NCBI GenBank assembly: GCA_019654055.1
Contig: BPDA01000005.1
Span: 1 to 59,460 of the forward strand
Source of the DNA: Methanobacteriota archaeon
GTDB taxonomy: Archaea; Thermoplasmatota; Poseidoniia; Poseidoniales; Thalassarchaeaceae
DNA length: 59,460 nucleotides
Direction: 5' to 3'
Below, piece by piece: positions 13,229 through 20,358 of the stretch. Both the position numbers and the translations under genes were made by a program. The notes below the pieces were generated by a model. That model was given only the letters and a program-made list of their open reading frames with translations, did no database searches and was not told where the DNA came from. Within the stretch, counting starts at the first letter, position 1. The number at the start of each line of letters is the position of its first letter.

Positions 13229-14524
13229 TTACTCCTCTCTCAGCCTCTCAAGCTCTTCTTCGACTGCTTTCTGGGTGATTCTGCCGCCCCCCTCTCTCAT
13301 ACGGGCTGCAACGATGTCCACCTCAGGTCCCTCAGCACCTGCGGTCACGGCCATGTTCCTGACGTGCAGTTTCATGTGGCCGGCTTGGATTCCCACTGTG
13401 GCCAGTGCCTTCAGAGCCCCTAGGTTCTGGGCCAGTCCAGCCGCTGCCATCACCTTGGCGAGGTCGTCGGCGGAAGTGATTCCGAGCAGGGCCACATTGG
13501 CTTGGGCCGCAGGGTGGACCCTCACAGCTCCTCCGACGAGGCCCACGGCCATCGGCAGTTCGATCGATCCCACCAGATTGCCACCATCATCCTTCTCCCA
13601 GTGAGTAAGCGAGCCATAGACCCTCTCGTGGGCAGCGTAGCTGTGGGCCCCCGACTCTACTGCTCGCCAGTCCTGTCCACATGCGATTGCTATGGGGGAG
13701 ATTGCATTCATGATTCCCTTGTTGTGAGTGGTTGCGCGGAACGGGTCGGCCTTGGCGAAGTGATAGGCCTGCAGCACCCCATCAATTACCTCGGAGCCTT
13801 GGGTAGCATCGCCCTTATCGGACATCTCCTCAGGAGTGAAAACCGCACTCACCCTAGCGAGCCTGTGCACAGCCAGATTGCTGATTATACGCAGTATCAC
13901 GGTCCCGCCGGTCAATCCTTCCACTTTCGGTGCGATTGTCTCGGCCATGGTGTTGACAGCGTTGGCGCCCATGGCGTCTCTGCAGTCTACGAGGATGTGT
14001 ACTATCACCATCGGGCCGGATTCGGTTTCGATGATTCTGGCATGGATGTCCCTGCAGCCACCGCCGAACTTGACAAGAATTGGGTCCACGGAGTTGCATG
14101 ATTCCATCAGTTCTGCACTATTCTGCAGAATTGACGCCCTAGCGGCTTCCGGGTCCTCACAACCCACCACCTGAATCTGCCCAATCATCACCGGATCGTC
14201 GTTGTCGGACATGAATCCTCCCTTGGAGTGGCACCGCTTCGCCATGTTGCTGGCCGCAGCAACCACGCTAGGCTCCTCGAGCACGAAGGGAATCAGGTAG
14301 TGCTCACCATCTATGATGAAGTTGGTAGCGACACCTATTGGAAGCGAGTAGGTCCCAATCACATTCTCTATCATCCGATCGGCCGAATCCTCCGAGAGTT
14401 CTCCCGAGGACGACCACGCCTCGACCTGTTCGGGGGTGAGTCCGGCTATGCCAGCCAGCATCTCCCTTCGCTCTGAAACCGAGAGCTTGTAGAATCCCTC
14501 TAGCCGGCTGCTGTCGACTGGCAT
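13229..14524 (-). CDS. mvaA: Hydroxymethylglutaryl-CoA reductase, class II type
   Basis: The enzyme interconverts HMG-CoA and mevalonate, feeding archaeal isoprenoid lipid synthesis. The 431-aa protein matches the class II (Pseudomonas-type) form. It has MIENVIGTYSLPIGVATNF, catalytic Glu in VLEEPSVVAAAS (about residue 83), catalytic Lys in HNKGIMNAI, Asp in GQDWRAVESGAHSYAA, and the late His segment GHMKLHVRN. I start at ATG 14524 (MPVDSSRLEGFYKLSV), where the family begins. The frame is open 40 codons further up to 14644, but that stretch contains the GCGTTAA motif cluster. Confidence 0.93.
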   Translation of the reverse strand: MPVDSSRLEGFYKLSVSERREMLAGIAGLTPEQVEAWSSSGELSEDSADRMIENVIGTYSLPIGVATNFIIDGEHYLIPFVLEEPSVVAAASNMAKRCHSKGGFMSDNDDPVMIGQIQVVGCEDPEAARASILQNSAELMESCNSVDPILVKFGGGCRDIHARIIETESGPMVIVHILVDCRDAMGANAVNTMAETIAPKVEGLTGGTVILRIISNLAVHRLARVSAVFTPEEMSDKGDATQGSEVIDGVLQAYHFAKADPFRATTHNKGIMNAISPIAIACGQDWRAVESGAHSYAAHERVYGSLTHWEKDDGGNLVGSIELPMAVGLVGGAVRVHPAAQANVALLGITSADDLAKVMAAAGLAQNLGALKALATVGIQAGHMKLHVRNMAVTAGAEGPEVDIVAARMREGGGRITQKAVEEELERLREE

Positions 14525-14625
14525 CCGTATCGGTTGAAGCCCGGTGGAATTGGCTTCTAACTGTTTGCGAGTGGCTCCGATATTCTCCCGAATCCGGGCG
14601 AAGGTCATGCGGAGCGTGCAGGAAG

Positions 14626-14770
14626 AACGCGTTAATCCAGCCATTAACGGGTCATTAACGCATCAATAAAGCGTTAGTGAAGCGTTAACGCCTAGGAATC
14701 ACATTCGATTTACTGAGCGGAAGCACCCTGCCTAGTACGCTTCGGAAATTCGCCAGAACGCGTTAAATCG
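14626..14770. repeat. Cluster of GCGTTAA-type motifs between mvaA and the Orc-like gene
   Basis: Six related motifs lie within about 145 bases: AACGCGTTAA (14626-14635), ATTAACGG (14643-14650), ATTAACGC (14654-14661), GCGTTAGT (14671-14678), the palindrome GCGTTAACGC (14682-14691) and AACGCGTTAAAT (14757-14768). They occur in both orientations in the divergent gap between HMG-CoA reductase and an AAA/winged-helix protein. This is the arrangement of an operator array or an origin-recognition element; the sequence alone does not say which. Confidence 0.6.
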
Positions 14771-14806
14771 GCCTCTAGGAAGCGTGAGGATGCGTGAATA
14801 TTAAGA

Positions 14807-16609
14807 ATGATAGAAATCGCTGCTCGGGCAATGATTGGAGAGGCAGTCTCGCTACTGGACCTACCTCCACTAAGGGGCAACCCATTCGATCACAGACCGA
14901 TTGAGTCCGCACGCGCTCAGGATTTGGTGGGACGCGATTCGCTGATGACCCGAATCAGGGAACACATCATCTCGGAATCTCCTAGGATGATCCTCTTGGT
15001 AGGAGAGGGAGGCAGCGGTAGGACCTCTCTAGTGAATGCACTCTCATCACAGGTCAACAAGAGGTTCGTCGGCAAGATATGGCCTCAGGACGAGCCAGTA
15101 ATCTCGATTATCAGCGAAATCGCAGTCGGGCTAACGGGGAGTTTCGACGTTCCAGCCTCGACCGAGCAGATGTGCGAGAGGCTGATTGACACCCTCGAAC
15201 AAGGCACCGGACCACTTCCCCTGATAGCCCTCGATTACCCAGATACAGTGCCGATGAACGACTTCTTGGCGCGAATGTCGCCTGTGTTGCAGAGTCTGAG
15301 GGCCTTGATCATCGTGACGCTGACACCCGGGCAACTCGCCTCACTCGATGAGGAGGTGCTTGAGGCGTTCGATCCCTCCGAGAACCTCGAGGGGCTATCA
15401 GAGAGTCAGATACAGCGACTAGTGGACAACCTCATGCGCAGGAAGGCGCGCGAGCGTTGGATAGTCAACTCCGATCTGCTGTCTGCCATCTATGACAACA
15501 CCGGGGGCAATCCCCGGGCGGTCGTTCGCACGTGCAGGGACCTAGTGGACGAGAGGAGGGGCGTCGGCTCGGAGGGGACCCTTGAGAGGCTGGTTGGGTG
15601 GCAGAGGATTGTTGAGGAGACGGACGACCCGCCCGAAGAGACCCCTGAGCCCAGAACCGAGCCGGAGCAGACCCCCGGGCCCGAGGCAGAGGATGACCAA
15701 GAGGACTGGGACACCGAGCCAGAGGACCTATGGGAGGACGAACCGGAGCCCGTGGAAGAGTCCGAGGAGTTTGATTGGGACGAGGAAATCCCGAATCCAG
15801 AGGAGATATGGGAAGACGAGTCCGAGCCGTCGGCCCCAGCCCCACAGCAAGGCCAAGAGACACTCGACTCCTTCGTCGTCGCGGAAGAAGCGACCGGGCC
15901 GGTGCCACAGCATCACCGTGCCGGAGGACTCAGTGGTCTGGCCGACAGGTCGCAGAGGGTCAGCGCGGCCCTGCCTAAGGGCCCCGATAAGACCCCAATC
16001 ACCGTGGCTGAGAACCGACCACAGCTCACGCCTGCGCCAATCAGGCCACCCCTCAGTCCAGACCCCGAGTCGGCCTTCGTCACCGAGGCCAAGCCAGACA
16101 CATCGGTCCCACCCACCGAGGACCAGCCTGTGATGGCCGCTGAGGGCGCACTCTGGACCGTGGATCCGAGCCTCGGCTCGACCCTCCCTAATCTCGATGA
16201 GGAGACTAAGGGCGCCCCGGAACCAGTCTTCGACATCGAGCATTCTCCCCCTCCTCCGGCCCCGGAGCCCGAGCCTGTGTTCGAGGAGCCGGAGCCCGAA
16301 CCCTCGCCCCCCCTCCCGCCCCGTATCCCAATTCCCCTAGGTCCCTCTTGGGACTCCGACGAGCCCCTAGACAGATCTAGGGCCGCAAACGTCTCTGAGA
16401 CCGAGCGAATAGTGCTGGCCGAGGCTAGGGAGCGCGAGGTATCGCCCTCCGACCCCGCCCTCCAGGCTGTCCTCGAGGTTGGCCGGACCAGGCTCTCCCA
16501 GATCTTCAACGGACTGCGCAAGGCTGGACTGCTCTCGGTCAGGAAGCAGGGCCGTACGAGGCTGTTCAAACTGAGCAGGGCAGCCTCGCTGGAACTCGAG
16601 ATGACCTAG
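14807..16609 (+). CDS. Orc1/Cdc6-like AAA protein with degenerate ATPase site and C-terminal winged helix
   Basis: The 600-aa protein has an Orc-like N-terminus (GNPFDHRP, then DLVGRDSLMTRI). The P-loop-like motif GEGGSGRTSL at residues 66-75 has Arg where the catalytic Lys should be. The Walker B position reads LIALDYPDTV, with no DE pair. About residues 280-525 are acidic and Pro-rich, probably disordered. The last 70 residues form a winged helix (LSQIFNGLRKAGLLSVRKQG). I infer a DNA-binding protein that has lost ATP hydrolysis. It could be a transcription regulator or an accessory origin factor. The motif cluster just upstream may be its binding site. Confidence 0.6.
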   Translation: MIEIAARAMIGEAVSLLDLPPLRGNPFDHRPIESARAQDLVGRDSLMTRIREHIISESPRMILLVGEGGSGRTSLVNALSSQVNKRFVGKIWPQDEPVISIISEIAVGLTGSFDVPASTEQMCERLIDTLEQGTGPLPLIALDYPDTVPMNDFLARMSPVLQSLRALIIVTLTPGQLASLDEEVLEAFDPSENLEGLSESQIQRLVDNLMRRKARERWIVNSDLLSAIYDNTGGNPRAVVRTCRDLVDERRGVGSEGTLERLVGWQRIVEETDDPPEETPEPRTEPEQTPGPEAEDDQEDWDTEPEDLWEDEPEPVEESEEFDWDEEIPNPEEIWEDESEPSAPAPQQGQETLDSFVVAEEATGPVPQHHRAGGLSGLADRSQRVSAALPKGPDKTPITVAENRPQLTPAPIRPPLSPDPESAFVTEAKPDTSVPPTEDQPVMAAEGALWTVDPSLGSTLPNLDEETKGAPEPVFDIEHSPPPPAPEPEPVFEEPEPEPSPPLPPRIPIPLGPSWDSDEPLDRSRAANVSETERIVLAEAREREVSPSDPALQAVLEVGRTRLSQIFNGLRKAGLLSVRKQGRTRLFKLSRAASLELEMT

Positions 16610-19111: not shown

Positions 19112-20314
19112 TCACCCCAATTCCTTCTCGATGCGACTCTCCAGAGCCGCCGGCGAGGTATTGGTCATAGTGATGTGCTGGGTCCTCCCACGACCAACGG
19201 TCGCGTTCGCCGTGCGAGACTCGATTAGTCCGACCCTCTCCAGCTCTTTGAGGTGCTTCCAGAAGGTCGTGTAACTACGCGGACTAACGCCATGCTCCTC
19301 GCACACCAGGTTGTACAGCTTCTGGGTATCGCCGCTGGATATCTCGTCCACCTTCTTCAGGCGCCTACAGATGCCTAGTAGGACGAGCTTCTGGTGCTTG
19401 CCCAACCCATCGATCTGACTGGGCTCGATTGATGACGTCCTCAGGGTACTCGGACTCACGTCCTCGACCAGAACGTCTCCCCTACCGTCCTTCTCGGCAC
19501 GACGGATTGCAGCCTCCAGTAACTCGATGGCCAGACGCGCGTCACCGCTTTCGGCGGCGAACCTGCCAATCTTGGCGAGTACCTCCTCTCCGACCGAGCC
19601 CGGCCTGCAGGCCTCCTCGTAGCGTTGCTCGGCAATCCCGGTGAGCGCGCGCTCGTCGTACCCACTCAGTGACAGCATACTACTCTCGCCGAGGCGAGAT
19701 ATGATGGCCGGCTCGAATAGCCTAATCAGGGAGGCATCCTGGCTCACCAGAATCATCGACAGCGAACCCTGCTGCCCCTGCCCCTCGTCGATGCGCAGAA
19801 GCTTGTAGATCAGGTCTCCCTTGTCATTCCTGATTAGCACGTCGACCTCGTCCAGAACTAGGAGGAGGTGAGCCTGATGAGTCCTGAGGTTGCGACGAAT
19901 CGATTGGATAATCTCGCTCGAACTGAATCCCCTCTCAGGATGTCCAGAGTCGAGTGAGCGGGCGATCTCCTGCAAGACCTGCGAGGCGGTTGGGTGGTTG
20001 CGGCAGTTGACGTGGGCGAGGACTATCTTCCTGCGCCCGTCCAGCATCCTCTGCAGATCTTCGCCGAAGCGACGCGTCATCACCGTCTTGCCCGAGCCCA
20101 CCGGCCCGGTGATGACAGCCCTGCCACTGACTCCGTGACCCTCCATGCCGACGAACATCGAAGCAAGCTCGCCGAGTTCCACATCGCGGCCGACCAGAGT
20201 GGGCGGCGTCCAGTCGAACGAGAACGGCGCCCTGTCAAGCAGAACCTTGCCCGCCCCTATTCTGTCAAGGTAGTCAACCATCATGCGACTCGTGCTCACA
20301 TCGTTATTAGACAT
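19112..20314 (-). CDS. cdc6: Orc1/Cdc6 replication initiator
   Basis: This is an archaeal origin-recognition and helicase-loading AAA+ protein. The 400-aa protein has the Orc signature VGRDVELGELASMF, Walker A GPVGSGKT, Walker B LLLVLDEVDVLI, a sensor region, and a C-terminal winged helix (SYTTFWKHLKELERVGLIES). I start it at ATG 20314 (MSNNDVSTSRMMVDYL). The open frame continues ten codons upstream through a Cys/Pro-rich stretch that does not look coding. It follows dph2 on the same strand after a gap holding a GC-rich palindrome. It is the second Orc-like gene here and the only one with an intact ATPase site. Confidence 0.95.
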   Translation of the reverse strand: MSNNDVSTSRMMVDYLDRIGAGKVLLDRAPFSFDWTPPTLVGRDVELGELASMFVGMEGHGVSGRAVITGPVGSGKTVMTRRFGEDLQRMLDGRRKIVLAHVNCRNHPTASQVLQEIARSLDSGHPERGFSSSEIIQSIRRNLRTHQAHLLLVLDEVDVLIRNDKGDLIYKLLRIDEGQGQQGSLSMILVSQDASLIRLFEPAIISRLGESSMLSLSGYDERALTGIAEQRYEEACRPGSVGEEVLAKIGRFAAESGDARLAIELLEAAIRRAEKDGRGDVLVEDVSPSTLRTSSIEPSQIDGLGKHQKLVLLGICRRLKKVDEISSGDTQKLYNLVCEEHGVSPRSYTTFWKHLKELERVGLIESRTANATVGRGRTQHITMTNTSPAALESRIEKELG

Positions 20315-20328
20315 ATTTGGAGCCACGG

Positions 20329-20358
20329 GCGCGCATGTGCACATCTAGTGGCGCGCGC
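20329..20358. repeat. Palindrome flanked by GCGCGC blocks upstream of cdc6
   Basis: The gap between dph2 and cdc6 holds a perfect 10-bp palindrome, ATGTGCACAT (20335-20344), with GCGCGC before it (20329-20334) and GCGCGCGC after it (20351-20358). It lies 15-45 bases before the cdc6 start. Possible roles are Cdc6 autoregulation or an origin-recognition element; neither is demonstrated by sequence alone. Confidence 0.4.

Follow-up and report, generated by a model that had tools for sequence, protein, structure and literature searches.

The box array between HMG-CoA reductase and the Orc-like gene

Positions 14525-14806 of the window (the whole stretch of 59,460 nucleotides that was analysed) form a gap between two divergent genes, encoding an HMG-CoA reductase on the minus strand and an Orc-like protein on the plus strand (Table 1). 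A box matrix with the consensus ANGCGTTAAY was built from 467 boxes in 72 gaps and used for scoring. Seven good GCGTTAA-type boxes, each of at least 12 bits, and two weak boxes of the GCGTGA type were found in the gap, which holds eight of the 14 matches above 6 bits in the 59-kb window. Boxes 1 to 5 are oriented > < < > >, with 11-base steps (approximately one helical turn) within the pairs pointing in the same direction. The motif array in both orientations that the original prediction had placed in this divergent gap is real and stronger than had been noted. Both copies of AACGCGTTAA in the 1.30-Mb draft genome lie in the gap, as do four of the 20 copies of GCGTTAAY. From the other 16 copies of GCGTTAAY, about 0.0035 would be expected per 282 bases, and the Poisson chance of the observed number is near 6e-12. 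Equal density of the motif elsewhere in the genome is clearly ruled out. In only one other place of the draft genome (G000:C44:2390-2399, locus L172) do two GCGTTAAY sequences overlap as in GCGTTAACGC; this single palindrome, too, separates two divergently oriented reading frames.

Table 1. Features at the locus. Positions in relatives are counted from the ATG of the Orc-like gene; > and < give box orientation.
Feature	Position	Strand	Score (bits)	Remarks
HMG-CoA reductase	13229..14524	-		starts at 14524 with the conserved MPVDSSRL; divergent gene flanking the array
Box 1 GCGTTAAT, within AACGCGTTAA	14629..14636	+	16.2	-204/-202 in most relatives
Box 2 CCGTTAAT	14643..14650	-	14.1	-188< in relatives
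Box 3 GCGTTAAT	14654..14661	-	16.3	11 bases from box 2; -177< in relatives
Box 4 GCGTTAGT	14671..14678	+	13.5	-161> in relatives
Box 5 GCGTTAAC	14682..14689	+	14.8	11 bases from box 4; -150> in relatives
Box 6 GCGTTAAC	14684..14691	-	12.0	overlaps box 5, giving the palindrome GCGTTAACGC; only in some relatives
Box 7 (distal) GCGTTAAA, within the second AACGCGTTAA	14760..14767	+	15.0	78 bases from box 5; -73> in relatives
Weak box GCGTGAGG, GCGTGA type	14782..14789	+		kept in the footprint of 27 non-redundant promoters
Weak box GCGTGAAT, GCGTGA type	14792..14799	+	8.1	abuts the presumed BRE/TATA; -41> in relatives
Presumed TATA-like element AATATTAAG	14798..14806	+		about 31 bases before ATG 14831; sequence kept, role presumed
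Orc-like gene	14831..16609	+		encodes 592 aa with the likely start, 600 aa if read from 14807
Second, divergent Orc1/Cdc6 (Cdc6.2)	19112..20344	-		conserved neighbour

Translation of the Orc-like gene probably begins not at the ATG at 14807 but at the next in-frame ATG, 14831, since the similarity among relatives begins there. An in-frame stop lies at most eight codons upstream of the equivalent start in 14 of 41 relatives. With the start at 14831, the last weak box abuts the presumed TATA element, whose AATATTA is kept across 27 non-redundant promoters. From the sequence, this region would represent the Orc-like promoter with a leaderless start.

Conservation and geometry of the array in Poseidoniales

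Of 60 genomes of the Poseidoniales (marine group II), the order of the window, 57 yielded the Orc-like gene. The box array precedes it in both families of the order, and the box sequence is nearly identical between them. In relatives that keep both genes, the array was clearly conserved. We also fetched an independent named collection of 80 loci with the Orc-like family, consisting of Candidatus Thalassarchaeum, Poseidoniales and marine group II records, some of which are from the same species as in the 60-genome set. Using the box matrix on the 1.17 Mb of these loci, exactly one box cluster was found in 78 of the 80, always upstream of the Orc-like gene, and no second cluster was found. The two exceptions are L197, which is cut by a contig end, and L245, in which the array is degenerate; degenerate arrays occur in a few genomes (L101, L245). 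Locus L184 (PAQG01000020.1) is titled Acidimicrobiaceae bacterium and carries the Poseidoniales locus; it is probably a misassigned contig or comes from a mislabelled bin. The array is undescribed as far as literature searches on origins in these archaea show.

The first box lies at a nearly constant distance from the Orc-like ATG (median -202, 10-90 percentile -204 to -199, SD 7.6), and many members of the family to which the window belongs share the pattern -203> -188< -177< -161> -150> -73> -41>. In a footprint of 27 non-redundant promoters the boxes were near invariant, while the spacer of approximately 70 bases between boxes 5 and 7 was mostly free in sequence and kept in length. A TACTG element, approximately 118 bases before the Orc-like ATG and 25-30 bases after box 5, was also kept in these promoters. 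In having several sites that stand at a constant distance ahead of the Orc-like start and are kept in relatives, the array shows one feature of an autoregulatory operator. It constitutes a very rigidly conserved non-coding element of marine group II archaea. Members of this group are numerous in surface ocean waters but difficult to study, as none is, to our knowledge, in pure culture.

In the complete genome of a relative (G037), the box matrix detected a single cluster in 1.43 Mb; it precedes the Orc-like gene, at 694,895-694,989. Single sites outside the array numbered 147, fewer than the 590 (SD 315) obtained with permuted matrices. Their intergenic share was 0.12 compared with 0.09 (SD 0.02) for permuted matrices, and no regulon-like enrichment of single boxes between genes was evident in this genome. 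A global regulon was considered and rejected, as the secondary box pairs inspected elsewhere fall mostly inside genes and single boxes lack intergenic enrichment.

The Orc-like protein and its gene neighbourhood

The Orc-like protein belongs to an order-specific, unnamed family, in which an Orc/STAND-type AAA+ domain is followed by a disordered linker and a C-terminal winged helix. The AAA+ domain extends from about residue 10 to 255 and the winged helix from about 515 to 588; both are predicted with confidence in the structural model, and the linker between them is acidic, disordered and of low confidence. The Walker A motif GxxGSGRTS is conserved and the Walker B aspartate invariant, and conservation within the protein is highest in the winged helix (SPSD..L...L.V.R.RLSQI.N). 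Among sequence profiles, AAA_16 and AAA_22 gave weak matches to the AAA+ domain. Cdc6_C, Cdc6_lid and TIGR02928 gave none, and all three are matched by the Cdc6 of the window. The nSTAND1 profile was matched by nine of 25 members (best E 4e-4); the window protein reached 17.3 bits against a cut-off of 27.1, and no STAND NTPase profile exceeded its cut-off for this protein. Searching solved structures by sequence returned spurious or generic matches only. Orc1 structures were among the top fold matches of the model (E about 1e-9 to 1e-8, 11-19% identity), followed by NB-ARC, clamp loader, TnsC and MuB ATPases, with E-values that do not separate these from Orc1. Of the features originally ascribed to this neighbour, the Orc-like N-terminus corresponds to the Orc/STAND-type AAA+ domain, and the winged helix was borne out. 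In 14 genomes of a neighbouring order of the class, tested for both, neither the array pattern nor the Orc-like gene was found, the protein searches yielding only P-loop fragments. The box array designates a putative binding site for an AAA+/winged-helix family without a dedicated Pfam model.

Array and Orc-like gene are part of a conserved block, SMC-ScpA-ScpB-HMGR-[array]-Orc-like-DUF357-PIN-eIF2gamma-S6e-Cdc6.2-Dph2. As a rule, two Orc1/Cdc6 genes are present in the Poseidoniales genomes examined: one scores high and lies elsewhere, the other is the divergent Cdc6.2 of this block. Cdc6.2 accompanies the block throughout the order; searches of the neighbouring order did not find it. The nearby gene had been taken for a genuine Cdc6; it does match the Cdc6 profiles and is actually the second, divergent Cdc6, with an order-wide conserved neighbourhood. 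It may be a non-initiator paralogue.

Candidate functions of the array

We favour, with moderate confidence, a function of the array as a cooperative operator by which the Orc-like protein regulates its own promoter. The gap would then be the promoter of the Orc-like gene carrying this operator, and the boxes would be bound by the Orc-like product, in which a long flexible linker connects an ATP-binding AAA+ domain with the C-terminal winged helix. Oligomers, forming in an ATP-dependent and cooperative manner, might load first on the strong upstream boxes (about -204 to -150). As the protein level rises, they might spread to the weak promoter-proximal boxes and so adjust, i.e. limit or boost, their own transcription. 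Repression would be the likelier sign of regulation, since the last box abuts or overlaps the BRE/TATA. The operator model fits the array's constant spacing from a single start codon, its 11-base phasing and the combination of strong upstream boxes with weak boxes abutting the TATA element. On the other hand, a regulator with one target cluster per genome is unusual, and Cdc6.2 shares the distribution of the Orc-like gene, so that distribution alone does not name the binder. Covariation between box and winged helix gave no answer as to the binder, because both hardly vary. Most likely, the array represents the self-regulatory site of an uncharacterised AAA+/winged-helix family. The original prediction of an operator array for this protein holds with respect to a true multi-box array tied to the Orc-like gene, while the proposed control of isoprenoid synthesis is not supported (see below). 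The operator model, with one protein, a 10-base box and one promoter, is testable in vitro with a single purified protein. The locus also suggests that Orc/STAND-type ATPases are used outside replication.

The nearest published precedent is Orc1-2 of Saccharolobus, a non-initiator relative of Orc1 that footprints on its own promoter at the short asymmetric motif ANTTTC (PMC9738581). Orc1-2, a DNA-damage-response regulator of Saccharolobus/Sulfolobus, combines an Orc1-type AAA+ domain with a winged helix and acts as a transcription factor on its own promoter, as the Orc-like protein would do. In contrast to the Orc-like protein, it is orthologous to Orc1 initiators, and many promoters are under its control, whereas the array is a single target cluster per genome. 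The Orc-like protein further differs in its winged helix, which follows a long disordered linker and has no Cdc6_C match, and in its putative motif, GCGTTAA. Activators of the MalT type use several asymmetric boxes near the promoter, and the sites of this family control other operons. MalT and other STAND-type activators (PMC4381067) are ATP-dependent, multimer-forming ATPases with a C-terminal DNA-binding domain, as the Orc-like protein would be. Unlike MalT, the Orc-like protein is archaeal, has no recognised sensor or arm domains and matches STAND profiles weakly. DnaA is an AAA+ protein with a C-terminal DNA-binding domain and has boxes at the dnaA promoter. DnaA boxes also make an origin, in contrast to the array, which shows no origin signal.

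It is unlikely that the array controls the Orc-like gene while being bound by another protein, most plausibly Cdc6.2, with the Orc-like protein acting elsewhere. Cdc6.2 is a close neighbour (4-6.5 kb) throughout the order with the same phylogenetic distribution, and archaeal Orc1/Cdc6 proteins bind asymmetric boxes (PMC9738581; also general background). However, no box cluster was found at the Cdc6.2 gene in loci that contain it, and the Orc-like protein, encoded directly beside the array, possesses a strongly conserved winged helix itself.

The presence of a single array per genome with 11-base phasing would also suit a site of chromosome organisation. We judge it quite unlikely that the order-specific AAA+/winged-helix protein polymerises on a single phased array per chromosome beside SMC-ScpAB, as a centromere-like or anchoring element with self-regulation built in. 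Less likely still is a phased AAA+/winged-helix nucleoprotein patch near SMC-ScpA-ScpB that serves chromosome organisation or segregation and has autoregulation as a mere side effect. The SMC, ScpA and ScpB genes adjoin wherever the contig reaches, and the fold matches include TnsC and MuB, which are DNA-bound, filament-forming ATPases. Yet the adjacency to SMC may reflect gene-order conservation, the fixed promoter distance fits an operator equally well, and no partition protein of a known type was found. In parC and tubC, phased short repeats precede the gene of a self-regulating NTPase system. The locus described here differs from these, as no partition genes were found and the NTPase and winged helix of the Orc-like protein are in one chain.

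The original prediction had also kept a replication-origin element in view. Archaeal origin recognition boxes (ORB) bound by Orc1/Cdc6 similarly form arrays in both orientations beside an Orc-type gene. Their sequence, CTTCCAGTGGAAACGAAAGGGGT (PMC4153887), is unrelated to the GCGTTAA boxes, and allowing up to three mismatches gave no canonical ORB match in the window. In many genomes, including that of the window, canonical boxes are instead found at another locus as inverted pairs approximately 145-165 bases apart. Inverted pairs of this kind, with spacings of about 150-165 bases, were located at G000:C13:23282-23452 (L167 2983-3153), L168 3032-3214, L170 2907-3087 and G037:C1:203746-203929. 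Those in L167, L168 and L170 adjoin a ferredoxin-like frame and a gene of beta-lactamase fold, which we read as aRNase J-like. These canonical inverted pairs are the probable replication origin of Poseidoniales.

Uncorrected GC skew was too noisy for use; strand composition was followed by gene-strand-corrected T/A skew at four-fold sites in one complete genome (G037, 85% sampled) and two long contigs. Over 50 kb to the left and right of the array, the skew was +0.108 and +0.030 in G037 and -0.146 and -0.157 in G022; the values for G020 were -0.046 and -0.038. The sign was kept in all three, and the size of the switch at the array does not stand out within its genome (0.67 quantile). In G042, by contrast, the skew flips sharply from +0.094 to -0.111 at a canonical box pair (C27:45635); leading strands would then be rich in A and C, contrary to the usual rule. 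Given this unusual polarity, the only conclusion drawn from the switches is that none coincides with the array. An origin at the skew minimum of G037 (about 306 kb), where one perfect ORB lies, had been considered; this was dropped since the polarity at the ORB pair of G042 is the opposite and G037 has its sharpest switch, from plus to minus, at 1.22-1.235 Mb. By canonical-box searches and corrected skew, the array was rejected as an active origin. A second or dormant origin recognised by Cdc6.2 and/or the Orc-like protein is highly improbable: the genomes generally have two Cdc6 paralogues, the genes for the Orc-type ATPase and Cdc6.2 lie within 6.5 kb, and repeated boxes beside an initiator-like gene are the classical layout, but neither a composition switch at the array (G037, G022, G020) nor a canonical box in the window was found. 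The array locus leaves the list of likely origins, and the canonical box pair elsewhere is pointed to.

Least probable of all is an operator that acts in both directions, controlling HMG-CoA reductase as well and so linking the regulator to isoprenoid (membrane lipid) synthesis. The reductase gene does lie divergently on the other side in every locus whose contig extends that far, but the distance from the array to its start varies between 20 and 229 bases (SD 37, compared with 7.6 to the Orc-like start); spacing is thus maintained towards the Orc-like gene and not towards the reductase. Distances were used here since no synteny break separating array and reductase was found within the order. 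The reductase itself scores 425 bits with the profile of the degradative class (TIGR00532) and 49 bits with that of the NADPH class (TIGR00533).
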